A stretch of DNA of 64,000 nt from Bullera alba (Eukaryota > Basidiomycota > Tremellomycetes > Tremellales > Bulleraceae). Position numbers and translations under genes: made by a program. Each line of letters begins with the position of its first letter. The first letter of the stretch is position 1. This document shows, piece by piece, positions 4,054 through 64,000 of this stretch. The notes beneath the pieces are model-generated. The model was not told the origin of the DNA and did no database searches. It worked only from the letters and a program-made list of their open reading frames with translations. The stretch is taken from the NCBI GenBank assembly GCA_001600095.1, contig BCIX01000005.1, forward strand, positions 688,523 to 752,522. The letters are read 5' to 3'.

Positions 4054-6026
4054 ATGTCTGAGCGTAACGCAACAGCACAAGACAAGCAGACTTTGTTAGG
4101 TCAGATACCAGCAAGTTCACCGCATAGACAAGCACAACCTCGTCTCCCGGCACAACGGCCCCGAGCTCAACCCTCCGCGGCTCGGCTCTGGATCATATCG
4201 GCCTTGGTGCTAGTAGGAGTGGTATTGTCCTTCTTGACGCAGATAGGGTATATGGGCGCAGGCAGCTCCAAAGGCGGGCACTATAACGACGTCTTCAAGC
4301 ACGGTCAGAGCAAAGGCGGTAGTGAGGGTCAGAGTCTGAAGCAGGATCAGGCGGTAATGTCGGGCAAGCGATCAGTCGGGTATTTCGTGAGTCTGCAAAA
4401 GGGCTCCAGTCGATTCTGGCTGATACATCGCCAGGTCAACTGGTAAGAGCGAGACAGGAGCGGTCGAAGCCTGAATGGAGCTCACGGGGGCATAGGGGAA
4501 TCTACGGGCGTAAATACTTTCCCCAGCAGATCCCCAGCCAACACCTAACCCATATCAACTACGCCTTCGCCAACATCAACAAGGATACCGGCGAGGTGGC
4601 GCTAAGTGACACTTGGGCAGACGTCGAGATTCACTACGAGGGGGATAGCTGGAACGACGAGGGAACCAACTTATATGGCAACTTCAAGGCTATATACCTG
4701 TTGAAGAAGCAGAACAGGTGGGTCAATATCACATTCTGATACAGAGCTGAGGTCGGCAGGAACTTGAAGGTCCTCTTGTCGATAGGCGGCTGGACGTATT
4801 CGCCAAACTTTGCCAACGTCGCGAATCCAAATTGGAGGGCGGCATTCGTCCACTCTTCAGTCAAGCTCGTCGAGGATCACGGGTTGGATGGGTGAGTTCT
4901 TTGCCAGCGATAGCGCTATGATGCTGACCGAGTGATTGCAGTCTAGACGTAAGTGTGGATACTCTATAGAGAGGAACCCACTGATACTGGTTCTAGATCG
5001 ACTACGAGTACCCAAAGACACCATCGGACGCCCAGGCCTATGTCGACCTCTTGCGCGAACTGCGCGGCGGACTGAATCACCTCGCCGCGTCCAAGGGGAG
5101 GGATGAGAGGCAGTATCAGTTGACAGTAGCGGCCCCCTGTGGCTCTAGCAACATGGAGATTCTGCACGTTCACGCTATGGACCAGTACCTCGATTTTTGG
5201 AACTTGATGGCGAGTGAATCCAAGTCTGAAACCACCATGCTGACCTCTCACTCTAGGCATATGACGTGAGTAGACTGCAGCCAAAGGGCATACATCTACG
5301 GCTGAGCCCAGACACTAGTTTGCCGGATCGTGGGACCCAGTGGCGGGGCATCAGGCCAACCTCTACAGTGCAGTGCCGGGCGGGACATCGGTCGACAACG
5401 CCGTGAGGTTTTATCAATCTCGCGGCGTCCACCCGAGCAAGTTGGTCGTCGGTAAGTCGATTGACCCGCAGATGACATTCGCTGAGTTTTTAGGAATGCC
5501 ATTATACGGCAGAGCATTCGCCAATACGGACGGCATCGGCGCGCCCTACAACGGTGAGTAGAAGACACCGATTGCTCCGTAGCTGATTTGATAGGCACCG
5601 GCGAAGGATCGTGGGAAGCCGGGATGTGGGACTACAAGGCCCTGCCCCAGCCCGGCGCGGAGGAGATCAACGATCACCGCCTCGGCGCCTCCTATAGCTA
5701 TGACAGGTCGGTCTCTATGCCCAATCATCCCAACTTTCGCGTTGCCTTTGGCACGTCACTGACAGCCTCAAAGGAACAAACGCCTCTTGATCTCATATGA
5801 TACTCAAGCGATCGTCACCCAAAAGGCGCAGTACATCAACCAGAATGCTCTCGGGGGCGTCATGTGGTGGGAGCTCGACTCGGACAAGCCCGAGGAAACG
5901 GGCGGAAATCTGGTCAGGACGGTGAGAGAGCAGTTTGGACAGTTGGAATACAGGCAGAATGAGCTTGAATACCCCGGGAGCAGTGAGCAAACGCTGGGCG
6001 AGATTGAGCATTCTGGTGGGCGCTGA
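4054..6026 (+). CDS. Membrane-anchored GH18 chitinase-like glycosidase
   Basis: GH18 hydrolases cleave beta-1,4-GlcNAc polymers with the Glu of DxxDxDxE. Here the motif reads GLDGLDIDYEYP and is complete. Other landmarks are [39 protein letters not shown] and [14 protein letters not shown]. The N-terminus has no classical signal peptide. It has a Pro/Arg-rich stretch and then one membrane segment ([17 protein letters not shown], about residues 49-65), so it is probably a type II membrane protein. Eleven exons: 4054-4386, 4435-4442, 4496-4717, 4760-4891, 4942-4948, 4997-5209, 5257-5265, 5319-5451, 5494-5553, 5595-5706 and 5774-6026. Three of them are only 8, 7 and 9 nt long, and the intron 5210-5256 starts with GC. 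The chosen ATG is the nearest one before the basic/Pro-rich tail. Upstream in-frame ATGs at 3952 and 4009 are possible. Confidence 0.88.
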
Positions 6027-17163: not shown

Positions 17164-19379
17164 ATGTCCGACACAGCTACCAGCACAATCCGGACACACC
17201 TCCACGCCCTGCAGACCGCACATCAAGTCCGCTCATTGCCCTACCTCCATCCATACGCCCCGGCCAGTCGCAAGGGAAAGGAAAGGGATGGGAACGGAGA
17301 TCTATCTGTGCAAGAGCAGCTGGACGTTTTAGCCCAAGTGCGCAAAGCGGTCGTTGATGCGAGATCGATTTTGTTCACGCCCTCCAGCTCGGGGGTCAAG
17401 GATGATGGCAGAGGGAAGCTAGCCAGGGAGTTGCGAGAGGTGTGAGTGCTACGTCCCGACTTTGTCTGTCACGGTCACGTTGAGCAGTCAAGCTGGAACA
17501 CTGCATGGCTTTGAAGGGGACTTGTGCTGATTTGATCGTTCGTACAGCACAAATCACCAGTCGAACCTCTTACCCCTCACAGCGTCCCTCGCCTCGTCGT
17601 CAACTTCAACGAATCGACCTTCGTCCCAGACCCAGCCGAGTAGACTGACAAGGGTATCCCCCATCGAAGTGTTGAGGACATTGGCAGCACAGGTCGACAT
17701 TCAGATATACCTCGAAGACTCTCAATTCGGCCTTCTCAAGACCTCCCTCGCTCTCGCGGGGGTATGTTTCGTGGTGGACGTCGATCTCGAGGTAGATGCC
17801 GTCGAGGGAGAGGAAGAGGATGGTGAGGGCAACAACGTCGAAAGCGCTGCCGAGCAGGGGCAGATCGGCTTGGAGGAAATCAACCAGAGTACAGCCATCA
17901 ACCCCGGCAAGGAGCTTAGGGCCGGACAGGAGGACAGAGAGGGTAAAGGGCGGTACAGACTGAGCAAGATCACGGTCAACCACGTCCAGGGGGACGTCAC
18001 CGGGAAATCAGAGTGGATCGCCAAAGTCCTCAAGGGAAAGTTGGAGGTTTATCTCGGGATATGGAATCAACTGGTGGCTATGCCTGAAGATGAGAGGCGG
18101 TGGGATGCTCAGGTGGAGATGGAATTGGCGATCAGGGCATTGGGACAGGAGTTGGGCGATTTGAAAGCGCTGGATCGGCTGGCAGAGGCGCTTGGATCTC
18201 GGCAAGAGGCAGATTTGTTCACCAACGTGGATAAGATTGGGCCAACGATCGAGGAATACACCGCTGAACAGAGGTACGCGTTTGTCAACGTGTCTGACCC
18301 ACCGTGCTGATGGTGGTTCACAGTCCAGAAGTGAGATTGTACCCGTCAACTCGGAGTGCTAGCATCTTCCCCTCATTCACGCTCCTACCTGGACAGGCGG
18401 AGCCCAATCCGACGTTCCGGATCCGACCGAGACGGAAGGGCGAGGATGTACCCGAGGCCGCGTCCTCGGGGGATATCGAGGCAGATTGGATCCACGGGTC
18501 GTGGATCATCGAGATAGTACCGGACCCTTCGGGGTACAACGACGGGATGGTCGTGAGGAGCAATTGGCTCAGTGCCGGGGATTCCGATGTTCCAACCAGC
18601 TGGGATGGTCTGGCTCGCGTCGAGCACCTCTTGGTACGCACACTCCTACTCCTCGTCGGGACGCGCGACTGACCTGGGGATTAGTATCGACCCGAAGGCA
18701 ATCTAGATCCGGGCCCCGCTTTCCTCTTCCCATACACCACCGACTTTGTCCACTCTCCCGCCAATCCCAGTTCAGGGGCAAACGGGTCGACGGGCCTGGA
18801 GCAGCGTTGGGCGATGGTAGAGCCCGGACCGGAAGCGTTCATCGTTGGCAGGATCGCATTGCCAAACGGTCTATCAGGATTCAAGCAGACCATCGAGGTG
18901 AGTCGGCCGGTCCTCGCGCTATGCGTCAGCGGCTGATAAGTGTCTGTACCAGTGTCTCCGGCGTCAACTCGTTCTCAATCGGCTATTCTGCACCATCTTC
19001 AAAGCTGACAAAGTGGATCTGGACTCTGGAGCCGACTTGGACGACTTTGACGATCTGATGCAAGGTGAGTCATACCGACGATGCGTACTGACAATTGGTA
19101 GGACCGGCCGCTTTGGCCATAACGTATCAACATGCTCAGTCGGCCATACGGCTCTCTATGCCCATTCCCCATCAACAACACGATCCTTCGGCCACGGTGG
19201 AGATTGTTCTCCGTGCGAATTCGAGCCCTCCCTTCGTGGAGAGCCAGATCTCTGCGAACAGCACGGATGCCGGTGTCATGGACAAGGCCTTCCAAGTGAT
19301 GGCGACTGCCCAAGCGGACAGTCTGGATCTGGTGGGGTTTGTACGTGCAGTCGAAGCGGGATTCAGCGCCTCGCTCTGA
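17164..19379 (+). CDS. MED1: Mediator subunit 1 (Med1)-like protein
   Basis: Six exons: 17164-17441, 17548-18273, 18324-18633, 18685-18897, 18953-19064 and 19102-19379. The core reads SPIEVLRTLAAQVDIQIYLE, then SLALAGVCFVVDVDLEVDAV, an acidic insert, YRLSKITVNHVQGDV and a helical region (LGQELGDLKALDRLAEALG). This order (helix with an 'LE' end, a VxDVDF-like strand, a second strand with V.H, then helices) is that of fungal Med1, which sits in the Mediator middle module and contacts activators. Sequence conservation of Med1 is low, so the assignment is by architecture. The C-terminal part (FLFPYTTDFVHSPANP onwards) looks like the beta-rich Med1 extension. No damage is seen. Confidence 0.6.
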
Positions 19380-50211: not shown

Positions 50212-53200
50212 ATGTGGAATGTACTCCGCCAGGCCTCCTGGCTTCTCGGTCTGGTTGCGAATCCAATTCCTGCACCACTCGACCACTCTCCAGGAGCGGG
50301 GCCATATAGCTATGTCGGGCCCATCGCAAATGGAGGTAGCTGGCTCGAGGGGTTCAAGCTCGCTTCGGCCGTGGTATCCAATATGACCCTTGAGGAGAAG
50401 GTACGCGATGATTTGCACCGCTGCGGAATGCATCTGCTTGATGAGAACAACAGTGTCCTCGCGCGCAGATTGGTGAGACTACTGACTTTACATGAACAGG
50501 TCAACCTGACTTCATCCATATTCGGACCTTGTCCCTCCAACTCCGGCGGCGTACCGAGATTGGGCATCCCTGGAATGTGTTTCGACGACGGACGTGGGTA
50601 TGCCCCTGGAACCCAATCCCGGATACTGCCTACTGAACACTTTGAACAGCCGCCGGACCGAGGTATACCGATTTCATCACGCAGTTCCCCTCTGAATCCA
50701 CCGCAGCAGCATCTTGGGATAGGCAGCTAATGTCCGAGCGGGCAGAGCGCATAGGGGAGGAGTTTCGGGATAAGGGCATTAACGTGGCTCTGGCACCGGT
50801 GAGGCGTCATCCAAATCTAACAATTGTGGCTCTGAGGCGCAGGGCTCATCATGTCGCAGGTCACTGGAGGACCGCTTGGTCGGTCGTAAGTGGCTTTATA
50901 CCGATGACCATATCGTCAGCTAAGATGCCTGCGTTTAGACCTTTTGCAGGAAGTAACTGGGAGGGTGGGTTTTCACCCCTTGTCAATCGCTCAAATCCAC
51001 ATTCCCCACCCCGTCAACCATAACAGCAAGGAAGGGTTGGGCCTGACACATTTTAGCTTTCTCACCGGATCCATATCTCTCCTCGACGCTATCCGGGCTC
51101 ACTATCAGAGGAATGCAGGCCTCGGGCGTGATCACTTGCGCCAAGCACTATATCCTCTACGAACAGGAACCAGTGTGCAAAGAGCCTCTTGACACGGAAC
51201 ATCGAGGCGAACGCACCGACTGCCGACAAGTCTCAGAGGAGGTGGACGGTACGTCAGCTTGTGAATGTCCCTTTACTCAGCTCGTGAGGGCTGACCGGAG
51301 GACGCAGAGAAAACGCTGAAAGAGCTATACTTGCCTTCGTTCGCTGAAGCAGTACGAGCGGGTACCGGTGCTGTCATGTGGTACGTGATATGATTGGAGA
51401 CGTCAATACTGGGACTTACATCGATCCAGCTCTTACAACTTGATCAATGGCACTGCAGCATGCGAGAATGACCGTGCGATGAACCAAATTCTCAAGACGG
51501 AGTTGAACTTTCAGGGCTTGTAAGTGTCCTGTCATCCACTTCATCACCTTGCCATAGGTCTCCAAATGCTCACTTCGGCTTAGTGTTCTCGTGAGCACAT
51601 TGCTCTTTCGTGTCTGACCTCTCAAGAGCGACTATGGCGCGACGCACTCGACAATTCCGTCCGCTCTCGCTGGTCTGGACATGGAGCTGCCCAGCGTCGC
51701 GTATTGTCAGCTGTGTTCATATTGTGAAGTCAACTCGTCTGACGCAGGTGACAGACGGCAAGCATCTGTTGAAGGCGGTGCGGAAGGGCAAGATTCCCAT
51801 GGAGCGAATCGATGATATGGCTAGACGGTGAGCTGCCTCCACCATGTCGGAGGGACTGAGACAGCTCACGAACGGCCCTGTACAGGATACTCACGCCGTG
51901 GTATGCGTCCAAGCAGAACGATGGATACCCGAAGACCAATTGGAACAAGTATGACCTAGCCGATTCAGTCCAGGTTGACGGGCATACCTACCACAACGAG
52001 CATGTCGACGTTCGGGGGGACAACCATCTTCTTGCGAGGAAGATCGCTGCGGAGTCGACCGTGTGAGATCCACCTCAGCAAACGAGCCGGTAGTGTTGTC
52101 ACTGATAGCTCGGAGCTAGACTTCTCAAGAATCAAGACAGCCTTCTGCCCCTCAACTCGAGCATCAGGCGTATCGGCATCTTTGGCAGTGATGCAGGTCC
52201 GCCATCCACCCTGTCTGGCTGCGGACCGGATCTGTTCTGTATGGTCGCCTCAAAGCGGCGGTATTGGAATGGTACTGTGACAATAGGAGGGGGTTCAGGT
52301 GCCACCTACGCTGACTACGTGGTGAGCAACACGCTGCATCTCCGCATAGCGCCTATGTTGATGGTAGACCTAGGTGTCGCCCCTGGAGGCGATATCCTCT
52401 CGAGCCTGGAGTGAACGGATGCGAGTCGACCATGTCCTCCAAGACGACTCTGCCCACTTCGAAGCCATCAACGCTGTTGCTGCCGCATCAGAGGTCTGTA
52501 TGGTGTTCGTGAGCGTCTATCTAGTGGAAGGATGGGATAGGAAGACCTTGCGTCTAGATCGCAATGGGGAGGAGTTGATCAAGGAAGTGGAGAAAGGCTG
52601 TGCCGGGCGAGTAGTGGTTGTGGTTCATTCCGGAGGGCCAGTCGTCATGGAGGATTGGGTGAGTGGTGGGTGGTGTGGAATTGAGAAAAGTTGCTGAGAA
52701 CGAATGTGTAGGTTGATCTGCCCAAGATATCGGCAGTGCTATGGGCCGGGTATCCAGGTCAGTGACACAGCTCCGCGACTATTCCAGTCCACAGGTCAGC
52801 CGAGCTGACGCGCATTAGGACAGGAAAGCGGGAATGCGCTGGTGGATGTCTTGTGGGGAGATGTCAACCCTTCTGCGAAGGTTCGTCATCTACCTCCTTA
52901 TAGAGTCTTCTTCATCAGAGTTGAGGTATTCTTAGTTACCCTTCACCCTCGGCAAGGAGGTATCAGACTGGCCGACCGGCAACATAATCAGAGAGGCAGT
53001 GAGTCACCGGTCTGTCCTCTTTCATCTGGTCCATTACAATGTCCTGATCGTTGCAGGAAGGCATGGACGTGACGTCCCCGAGGGCCATATTCTCGGAAGG
53101 CCTGGCTATCGATTACAAATGGTTCGACAAGTGGGACATAAAGCCTCGATTCGAGTTCGGCTTCGGCATGAGGTCAGTCGCCAGGTGAAGCTTCTTGGTC

Positions 53201-55045: not shown

Positions 55046-56515
55046 CTATAACGTGTATGGCACCTCGTGGAAGAGGTACGACTGGGAGTATGTCAGCGCA
55101 GATTCTCCTTCAACAAAGAGACTTTCAGCTACTCACTACGGACTCTCCAAAGTGACTTCTCCTGATAGTCTCGGCGAGAACATGACTGACGTCAATCTGC
55201 TCAATCTTGCTACATTGGCTCATCTTGTCGTGCAGGGGTATCGTGTTGGTAACGACCAATTTCTCCATTCCGCTCTCATTGATCACTTTGATAGCGGGTC
55301 CACTTAGGATACCGTGCGTGGCAAACGCAAAGACTTTGGTGGCTCCTGCTTCCAGTAGATTCCGGGAGGCGAGACCGAGCGTGCCACAAGTGTCGGCCAT
55401 GTCGTCGACCAGGATGGCGACTTTGCCCTTGACCGAACCGACGAGCACCATTCGAGAGACTTCGTTGGCCTTTTTACGCTCCTTGTGGAAGAGTGCAAAG
55501 TCGACGTTGAGTCTGTCGGCGATAGCGGTGGCTCTGCAGAAGGTCAGCGTGGAACTCACTGACGAGACCAGCTTCACTCACCTCTTGGCACCTCCGGCAT
55601 CGGGAGAGACAATCACACAATCCCGAACGTCCTCGAAGTGATCCCTGATGTACTTGATCATCGCTGGTTCAGCAAAGAGCTAACGGATTGTCAGTCCTCA
55701 TACGAATGGAAGCACTTGAAGCGATTACCCACGCTGTTCAAGCAAAAAGTCAAGGAGAGACAGTGTTTCGTCAGTCTTTGTCGTGATATACACGCTCACA
55801 GGGACCTACTTGTCCACAGGAACATCGAAGAATCCCTGGATTTGCGATGCATGGAGGTCCATCGTCTACAGACCGTTAGCAAAGCCCTCCACTCATTTTC
55901 CCGCTCAATGCCCACTCACGATGACATGGTCACATCCAGCTTCTCTCAGCATATTTGCAACGAGCTTTGCGGTGATTGGCGCTCTTGACTTGTCTTTCTT
56001 GTCTTGACGGGCGTAGAAGAAGTGCGGGATGATAGCGGTGATACGTCTAGCCGAGGCAATCTACTCATGTCAGCTGAGCACTGGGGGAATTCCGAAGTAT
56101 GGTGGAGACTCACTTTGCAAGCGTGGATCATGATGCACAGCTCCATGAGCGAGGTGTTGACATCTCCCGCATTCTAGACTGGGTCAACACATCTCTGGCA
56201 AATGGTGATGATGCTCGCTCACTGTGTTGAGGATGTAGACGTCGTAATCACGGACACTCTCCGTGATGGTCACTTTGGTTTCCCCAGAGGGGGGCTGCGT
56301 GACGCTAGCTCGGGCCAGGGGGATGCCTAGTCTGTACAGAGGGTCAAGAGCTGGAGCAAAATGAAGAGTCCCATGCAGCTCACCTCTTGGCTATTTGATG
56401 AGCGAGATCCGGGTGGGAGGAACCTGCGAAAAGTTAGCTATTAGCGATTGACAGGCGGAAGTAAAAGGAGCTCACCCGCGAACAGCTTGATGGCGGCGTA
56501 GGCGGCGGACGACAT
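55046..56515 (-). CDS. PRS: Ribose-phosphate pyrophosphokinase (PRPP synthetase)
   Basis: Makes PRPP from ribose-5-phosphate and ATP for nucleotide, His and Trp synthesis. Ten exons on the minus strand: 56515-56476, 56423-56384, 56331-56223, 56173-56114, 56060-55920, 55865-55810, 55733 (a single base), 55679-55582, 55533-55137 and 55081-55046. They sum to 978 nt, or 325 residues, the usual length. Landmarks: [114 protein letters not shown], the PRPP loop [16 protein letters not shown] and the end [13 protein letters not shown]. The Asn codon of PVDNLF is AA plus C from the one-base exon; every other splice choice I tried breaks the frame or loses the motif. Divergent from SKN7. Confidence 0.93.
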
Positions 56516-61784: not shown

Positions 61785-64000
61785 CTATGCCCCGGCTACC
61801 CGCACGGCCGAGAGCGACGGGCCCTTGTAGTACTTCCTAGCGTTGACGGCGTACCATGCCGTCGCAATGGCCGCAAATCCTGCAAATACCGCGCTGGCAT
61901 AGTTCATCGATTGCGGCGTGACCGGGATGGCGACGGCTAAGCCCCAATTAGCTTGCAAGCAATTGGCGGCGGGGACACTCACGCATGCAGAAGAGGACGA
62001 TGGAGAATGTGATCCAGATGACGGTGATGATGTTCTACCCACCAGTCAGTCGCTCTGCAGGACAAAGCAATTGGTCGTTAGGGTGCTCACGATAGCGTAG
62101 CCGAATTTGCCTAGGGACCAAGCGGCGCCCTGGACCATTTTCCTCCTTCTCAATAAGGAGCACAGCACGGGAAAGGCGTAAGAGCATCCAAGGCAGATCG
62201 TAGCGACTGCACAAACGATATTTGCGTCAGCGGCTTGGCTCGAGGACGGGCCTGCGGCACTTACCACCGGTGAAAGCGCTGAAAGCGGCCGTGCTGCCCA
62301 GGTAGATGAGACCCAAGAGCGCCATGACCACCGTTGACAGCAGGAGCGAGTAGACGGGCAGTCCGAATCGATCGTCGACTTTCCGCCAAATGTGGGAGCC
62401 GGGGATACCCCCATCACGACTGAACGCCCATGTGCACCGCGACGCAGCGGTCAGTGAGCCGACTGTCGCAAAGAACCAAATGCCGAGGACTAATGGGGAG
62501 TCAGGGGACATGCTCTGAATTTAGGCACTTGGCACGTACTGAGGAACAGGAGACCAAGGGCGGCGCCGTTGCTGCCCGTGACTTGCTTGTAGAGCAGGGG
62601 CATGGGCTGCAGACTTGCCACTTGGAGCAATGGCTCGATGGCAGGGAGCACAAAGTTGATTGGGATCTGGGCGTGTCAGCAGCGTACAGTGTTTTGCGGT
62701 GATCCCACTCACGAGGTAAACGAGGCCGGTCACAGCGGCTGCGGCAACAGAGAGGACTGGGCGACATAGGTCAGACACGTCTTCCATCGCCAGGCAAGAG
62801 CGAGCGCGGGACGACACTCACCCATGGCTTTAGGAACCTCTCTAGCGGGTTCTCTGACCTCTTCGCACAGTGCAGCGACCATACCATATCTACAAGCCAA
62901 GTCAGCTTCTCAGGGCCAAAGAGCTGATTTTAGCTGGCGCTCACCCGGTGAGCGTGTAAGCGGCTTGTAGTAGACCGACGAACCAGGCCCAGGCTGCTGG
63001 CCAGCCAGAGTACGATGCGTCGAACTGCCAAAATGTCAACTTCATTGTCCGATCTCAATCTGCCGGACCTGAGCTGGGAAGGAGCTCACCTCCGTGAAGG
63101 CGAACTCTGCGGAATTCGTGTTGTCCGACATCACCAGCAAAGTGACGATGATCTGCAAAAGTCAGCGCGCGAATCTTATGGGCAATCCATCTGGTTCACG
63201 CACACTGCCAAGACGTCAGCGCATGGTTTACATCAATGGATGAGTCGAAAACTCACATGATGACCGACGCAGCGGTCCAGTAGAGACACAAGTTGTTCAG
63301 CTTGTCAAGGTGTCTAATCAAACCAGTCAGTGATTACTCGTCGTGCCAGGCTCGTAGCTTCGGCTCACTTGTTGAAAAACAGGTTGATCAAGAATGATCC
63401 GATGCACGAGGCCCAAAAGACCAAACAGGTTTGCCAGGGGGTGGGCACGTAGTCCTCGTGGTAGATCGTTGCCGCCGCTAGAATCAGTTGACTTCCGCCA
63501 AACGTGATCGACGTTGCGACGCTGTCGACCAAGTCAGTCATGCCTCTATCGCAAATTGGAATTGTGGAACTCACGTCCAGTTGCCGACGGTGCCCAGCCA
63601 GCCGGTGAGGTAACTCGCGAATGCACTGTACTTGGGTGTTGAGAGCATCGCCGCCCAGTCTACAAACAACATGTCAATGTTAGGTCTTTACCTGGTCACG
63701 CGAGCGGATGTCGACGTACAGTAGACTCCTCCTGAAGTTGGGTACACCGAACATCTAGAAGAGGCCAATCAGTGAGGAGACCTACACCGTACTGAATCTG
63801 AGTAACCTACATCTCTGCCAGACTTCCCGCCATGCACAACGAAACGAGCGACACAAAGATCCACTACACGCCCAAATCAGTCAAAAAAGCCCCCAAGGCG
63901 CACTCCTGCACTCACGCCGTAGAGAATGGTCACTGGCCCACCCGTCGTCAAGGCCGTGTTCAACGTCGTGCTCGTGCCAAAGGGCACTGCCATGATGGCA
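61785..64000 (-). CDS. Amino-acid/choline/GABA-type permease (APC superfamily), 5' end off the window
   Basis: Proton-coupled plasma-membrane or vacuolar transporter of the fungal ACT/UGA4/HNM1-like group. Visible landmarks, N to C: MAVPFGTSTTLNTALTTGGP then VTILYG, WIFVSLVSLCMAGSLAEM, CSVYPTSGGVYYW, YLTGWLGTVGNWTVSFSVAT, AWAWFVGLLQAAYTLTGYGM, AALCEEVREPAREVPKAM, IPINFVLPAIEPLLQVASLQ, LVLGIWFFATVGSLTAASRC then WAFSRDGGIPGS, DDRFGLPVYSLLLSTVVMAL, and the last spans up to NYASAVFAGFAAIATAWYAV. The PTSGG and EVxxPxxxVP motifs are those of the family. About a dozen introns are evident. The first exons lie beyond 64000. The substrate cannot be told from sequence alone. Confidence 0.87.

Follow-up and report, generated by a model that had tools for sequence, protein, structure and literature searches.

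How does the PRPP synthetase (PRS) gene on the minus strand of this 64,000-nucleotide stretch of the Bullera alba genome (contig BCIX01000005.1; hereafter the window) keep its reading frame across a junction at which the obvious exons do not fit together? This housekeeping gene encodes a PRPP synthetase, since its product gives the full-length match above cut-off that defines membership of the family. The Pfam models Pribosyltran_N, Pribosyl_synth and Pribosyltran all score above cut-off, as do NCBIfam NF002320 (387 bits, cut-off 297) and TIGR01251. The best solved relatives are chains of PRPS1, which we take to be the human enzyme, and residues 9-323 (315 residues) of the predicted protein align to them ungapped, with VDNL lying on VDNL. 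Joining exon 6 plainly to exon 8 leaves the message one base short, however, and the resulting frame reads VDNSLLNQR and stops after 155 residues, giving a truncated protein. The C at 55733 is in all likelihood a genuine single-nucleotide exon of the gene, most likely a constitutive one, that supplies the missing base (Table 1).

Table 1. Positions of the predicted genes, exons and introns discussed in the text. Plain numbers refer to the window; C2 and C6 are contigs of the genome, and L038 and L060 are loci on them. Slashes mark exon boundaries.
Feature	Position	Strand	Description
PRPP synthetase (ribose-phosphate diphosphokinase) gene	56515-55046	minus	10 coding exons; CDS 978 nt including stop; 325 residues
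PRS exon 1	56515-56476	minus	
PRS exon 2	56423-56384	minus	
PRS exon 3	56331-56223	minus	
PRS exon 4	56173-56114	minus	
PRS exon 5	56060-55920	minus	
PRS exon 6	55865-55810	minus	3' end ...GTG GAC AA, phase 2; also written ...GTGGACAA
PRS intron 6	55809-55734	minus	76 nt; GTAGGT...GACTGAC...GAACAG
PRS exon 7	55733	minus	single nucleotide C, predicted to complete the Asn codon of PVDNLF as its third base
PRS intron 7	55732-55680	minus	53 nt; GTGGGT...GGACTGAC...CCGTTAG
PRS exon 8	55679-55582	minus	starts CTC TTT GCT GAA CCA, phase 0
PRS exon 9	55533-55137	minus	
PRS exon 10	55081-55046	minus	
Predicted spliced PRS sequence with retained C			GACAACCTCTTT; GTGGACAACCTCTTT (across 55582-55865)
Amino-acid permease gene	63993-61785	minus	16 predicted exons; PF13520 above cut-off; best NCBIfam model TIGR00907, below its cut-off
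Permease intron	63256-63205	minus	52 nt; GTGAGT...GCTGAC...GGCAG
Permease exon 7	63204	minus	single nucleotide T, predicted third base of an Ile codon (ATC AT/T/ATC)
Permease intron	63203-63153	minus	51 nt; GTGCGT...GCTGAC...TGCAG
Predicted spliced permease sequence with retained T			GTCATCATTATCATC (63090-63313)
CNNM metal-transporter gene	C2 near 480391; L038 1448-1601 (C2:480303-480456)		13-, 1- and 14-nt exons following one another in the gene-finder model
CNNM one-base exon			A, predicted middle base of the Glu codon G/A/G in FGEILPQ
Predicted spliced CNNM sequence with retained A			TTCGGAGAGATCCTG
Ran gene	C6 near 610553; L060 294-480 (C6:610494-610680)		exons of 57, 1, 5 and 28 nt; ACA/G/GAAAG/ACC
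Predicted spliced Ran sequence with retained G			GGAACAGGAAAGACC

The original prediction had placed the two donors at 55809 and 55732, the acceptor ends at 55734 and 55680 and the retained C at 55733, with introns of 76 and 53 nt and a CDS of 978 nt encoding 325 residues, and recomputation agrees with it on every one of these values. Its proposal that AA + C + CTC yields PVDNLF is borne out by the alignment to PRPS1 and by an enumeration of the possible parses between 55810 and 55679. The candidate GT/GC-AG introns of 30 nt or more number 228, and with one or two of them 291 parses can be built that stay in frame and meet no stop. Two of these parses restore VDNLF: one retains C at 55733 between GT-AG introns, and the other retains T at 55714 by way of a 34-nt GC-AG intron. 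The parse through C is the sole GT-AG parse among those enumerated that keeps both the frame and the conserved VDN. The claim that all other GT and AG pairs fail therefore stands for GT-AG introns, with the addition that the GC-AG route through T gives the same protein. The splice scores are 2.4 nats for C at 55733 and -24.2 for T at 55714 (26.6 lower). The best single intron that keeps the frame, 138 nt long and starting at 55817, removes Val-Asp-Asn and scores -11.2, and the single 130-nt intron that loses the frame scores -4.0 against the 2.4 of the two-intron reading. Thus, the C is preceded by AG and followed by GT, has a usable intron on either side and is needed both for the frame and for the conserved protein. 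A paralogue of the gene on contig C1 reads GTC GAC AAC CTT without interruption, being intron-free at the equivalent point.

The same structure is returned by a home-made, self-training gene finder that combines a codon-phase Markov model, splice-site and branch matrices and intron length; its scores are rough, and its minimum exon length is one base, with no higher floor. Trained on the window together with 196 kb of sampled genome (91 genes, 77 of them scoring above 30, and 367 introns, with the PRS gene excluded), it gave the exact ten-exon model, C included. It did so again when re-estimated on 275 introns outside the window, using gene models from a training round in which the window had been included, and once more after training anew on nothing but the 196 kb outside the window (70 genes, 262 introns), with identical results whether the shortest intron was set at 38 or 30 nt. 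The best model that dispenses with the one-base exon is about 6 nats lower (66.2 against 72.3) and breaks VDNLF; since this margin is only about 6 nats, the weight falls on protein conservation. Compared with the 367 training introns, the two introns lie at the 92nd and 47th percentiles of length, their acceptors and branch sites at the 48th percentile and their donors in the weakest fifth (18th and 19th percentiles). The remaining seven introns of the gene measure 48-55 nt. As the median training intron is 53 nt long and 13 of the 367 reach at least 120 nt, a 130-nt intron at this position would be unusual. Four things can be read off the sequence directly: that the frame needs the base, that the GT-AG parse is unique, how good the signals are, and that the protein is continuous with its relatives. 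Taken together, the uniqueness of the parse among GT-AG introns, the outcome of the scratch-trained finder and the uninterrupted paralogue support the interpretation of C as a one-base exon, and the original prediction is very probably right in reading the gene this way.

A further one-base exon is predicted in the same window, 7.5 kb from that of the PRS gene, where the same finder places a T at 63204 within an amino-acid permease gene. When the parses of this span are enumerated, the best three (11.1, 4.1 and -0.3) all use T, and the best without it scores -4.1. The finder favours T over the best alternative by 16-18 nats and also returns it when trained from scratch outside the window. Six bacterial permeases (29-34% identical, from plasmid records; six of the 39 matched records) align without a gap across the T junction. 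In the corresponding chance control, 0 and 1 of 20,000 shuffles (two runs) and 0 of 18,282 intergenic segments did as well. Comparison of the permease with solved structures gave no match, and among 34 pattern matches in the genome contigs none was confirmed as a relative.

Elsewhere in the genome, one-base exons are predicted in genes for a CNNM metal transporter and for Ran. The CNNM product (Pfam CNNM, 113 bits) aligns with CNNM4 gap-free through FGEILPQ (IFGEILPQALCSRHGLA), the Glu that would be completed by the retained A being Ala in the third chain shown; the donor before the one-base exon, GTGCGG, is weak (score 1.1). In the Ran gene the predicted exons of 1 nt (G) and 5 nt (GAAAG) supply the Gly-Lys codons of the P-loop and spell GDGGTGKTTF. 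Among 6,704 stop-free parses with up to three introns and with ends taken from the finder, two produce GDGGTGKTTF, both by way of the one-base G exon (+7.5 and -5.1 nats), and the better of them beats the other parses listed. Compared with solved structures, the first 64 residues of the product hit Ran, without a gap over residues 4-64, and a search of the genome with these 64 residues found no second Ran locus at E 0.001. Ran is essential in eukaryotes, and a Ran without an intact P-loop would not be viable. Since this is the only locus detected, it must give a working P-loop. The shuffle results for CNNM and Ran were 0 and 1 of 20,000; because both loci were chosen by their splice signals these results are not independent evidence, whereas the frame and the protein are.

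Pattern searches were run on the genome, 19.4 Mb in 7 contigs (the largest of 8.0 Mb), in which introns of about 53 nt are dense, features that would be in keeping with a tremellomycete yeast. Two branch motifs flanking YAG-N-GTRNGT gave 18 matches at 16 distinct places, against 5 matches in the reversed control. The finder retains a one-base exon at four of the 16 (PRS, permease, CNNM and the locus L042), makes the base the last of a longer exon (4-137 nt) at 11 and has one outside predicted genes. A second pattern gave 14 matches (12 distinct, 7 of them new) against 2 in the reversed control, and of the five new places analysed the Ran locus holds; a further pattern gave 29 against 8. Most of the places analysed do not hold a one-base exon, and the excess over the reversed control therefore consists mostly of ordinary exon ends. 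The one-base exon at L042 (C3:454585-454687, minus strand) was rejected, since a 17-nt exon encoding QPGCSG scores 7.87 against 7.79; the gene is presumably glutamine-synthetase-like, and the probable 17-nt microexon fits that family. That at L058 was likewise discarded, as no gene model covers the site on the relevant strand, and L059 and L061 were tentatively modelled, on only 700 bases each, with exons of 12 and 14 nt instead of a one-base exon. At the transporter-like locus L051 (C1:7659157-7659237), inspection of 800 bases by eye suggests that a 14-nt microexon (IAWTV) may lie between two introns, one of about 36 and the other of about 37 nt, on the strength of what we assume to be a transporter motif; the finder returned neither this exon nor a one-base exon. 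Overall, there appear to be no fewer than four one-base exons in the genome, in the PRS, permease, CNNM and Ran genes.

Very small exons were also counted among the genes scoring above 30. Nine internal exons are at most 10 nt long, the PRS and permease one-base exons among them. All nine come from the window, which contributes 107 internal exons, and the finder placed none among the 265 of the sampled 196 kb beyond it; across the genome such exons may therefore be infrequent. Exons with a predicted length of 6-9 nt occupy 42435-42429, 4435-4442, 4942-4948, 5257-5265, 51584-51590 and 14485-14480 of the window. The finder also returns a 2-nt exon at 18329-18330 of the window (gene 17164-19008, plus strand), downstream of which the protein is apparently out of frame, making this model doubtful.

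It is possible that the missing base of the PRS gene reflects an assembly error, such that a base has been lost beside the junction, the gene has a real single intron of 130 nt and AG-C-GT is coincidental. The same protein would result if a single C had been lost from either edge of the 130-nt span, and the 13 long introns of the training set show that such a length does occur. However, 130-nt spans in which AG-[C/T]-GT, the inner acceptor, branch and donor, and the lengths score as well as here arose in 5 of 20,000 dinucleotide shuffles (2 of 20,000 in a repeat run), in none of 17,660 intergenic segments (both runs) and, for any exon base, in none of 23 predicted introns of at least 100 nt. 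The signals at 55733 thus exceed chance. The same coincidence would moreover have to recur in three other genes (permease, CNNM and Ran), every one of them lacking exactly one base at an intron where an AG-N-GT happens to fit, and we regard an assembly error as very unlikely. The decay of a gene copy by a frameshift, affecting the PRS gene or the other three, would also produce a frame break at an intron, and a PRS paralogue is indeed present on contig C1. Yet the ten exons together form one open frame from ATG to stop, conserved throughout its length, and the Ran locus, as the only one detected with the first 64 residues as query, must encode a working P-loop; decay can be given hardly any credence.

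A different splice product could be made through non-canonical sites or through the 138-nt intron from 55817 that leaves out Val-Asp-Asn, given that this GT-AG intron keeps the frame and that T at 55714 with its GC donor does give VDNLF. But the 138-nt intron would drop three residues from a stretch that is gap-free against PRPS1, and the splice scores of both routes (-11.2 and -24.2) compare poorly with 2.4, which makes such a product highly improbable. Stwintrons, in which an inner intron interrupts the donor, branch site or acceptor of an outer one and nothing is retained, are described in the accessible literature as undergoing consecutive excisions within one span, and sequential removal is what we propose for the PRS introns as well. 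Without a retained base, however, the frame breaks, and the AG is followed by C and then by a complete donor, GTGGGT, rather than by the remainder of a split one. As a coding base is retained here and each intron has its own complete and separate sites, that the span is a stwintron is scarcely conceivable.

Reading C at 55733 as a one-base exon, we infer its splicing in the RNA, the order of the reactions and the origin of the exon as follows. The general view is that the splicing machinery of fungi recognises short introns across the intron itself. At each of the four sites both introns look like ordinary U2-type introns. The PRS introns of 76 and 53 nt would be two such introns lying one base apart, each recognised in this way (intron definition), so that the size of the exon between them would matter little. 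With a single base separating the acceptor AG from the donor GT that follows, the two introns would be removed sequentially, and the C would end up as the last base of the Asn codon in PVDNLF. The first excision alters the donor context only slightly, too little to tell the order of splicing. As to their origin, such exons may arise most simply when two introns settle one base apart in an intron-dense genome. Nelson and Syed (PMC12940212), in the accessible part of their paper, propose base loss rescued by a cryptic AG-N-GT; the tiny neighbouring exons in Ran (5 nt) and CNNM (13 and 14 nt) would seem to fit nearby independent intron gains better than base loss followed by rescue. A tandem duplication as the source of the flanking introns finds no support, the proportion of random intron pairs scoring as high being 0.988 for PRS and 0.13 for the permease.

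Single-base exons are not without precedent, and not every one of them belongs to the spliceosome: that of placozoan cox1 is not spliceosomal. It is found in a mitochondrial gene (PMC5436844, in the part available). The original prediction mentioned a case in a plant gene, but such exons are more widespread: VPS55 (PMC8831610), in a second plant family, and the fungal CYP621A (PMC12940212) also have them. Nor does the PRS exon stand alone in its own genome, where three more are supported. From the sections of these papers at hand, Arabidopsis APC11 has a single-nucleotide exon in a 422-nt span (PMC4674806), APC11 and VPS55 carry such exons across plants (PMC8831610), and the plant cases have been confirmed by cDNA or RNA-seq (PMC4674806, PMC8831610). 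As far as these accounts go, the present exons resemble those of APC11 and VPS55 in that one base stands between AG and GT, is required for the frame and is missed by the reference annotation; they differ in that the spans are 104-133 nt with short introns and in being predicted from DNA. Fusarium CYP621A was presented by its authors as the second example and the first in a fungal gene; according to the portion available (PMC12940212), its one-base exon lies in the PKG motif, within what looks like a 139-nt intron, over twice as long as the median, and occurs in one P450 subfamily in many Fusarium species, always as AG-G-GT, with RNA reads from two species. The likeness to our cases, on that account, is that the gene is fungal and the motif conserved, and the same reasoning from an over-long intron covers the 130-nt PRS span. 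Unlike CYP621A, the present cases comprise four unrelated genes of one genome, the exon base being different in each (C, T, A and G), and they are deduced from sequence. In the accessible text of PMC3990503 and PMC8022950, microexons appear only as a setting of a read mapper. The titles and abstract openings searched contained no published one-base exon in a PRS, Ran or CNNM gene and no report of several in one fungal genome. The PRS exon is therefore of a kind already known from plants and Fusarium.

On balance we lean slightly towards the view that exons of a single nucleotide recur in this intron-dense genome as an ordinary class, perhaps numbering in the tens and lying in conserved genes, the P-loop of Ran included. 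In print, spliceosomal single-base exons were found for two families of plant genes and for a single P450 subfamily of fungi; a set of four within the same fungal genome, with one in the Ran P-loop, would make a class of what has been a curiosity. Such a set would serve as a system in which to test splicing order where sites are separated by a single base, and it would warn that annotation pipelines likely lose or frameshift genes of this kind. If the view is correct, exon size would have no practical lower limit under intron definition, and every gain of introns one base apart would create an exon of this kind.
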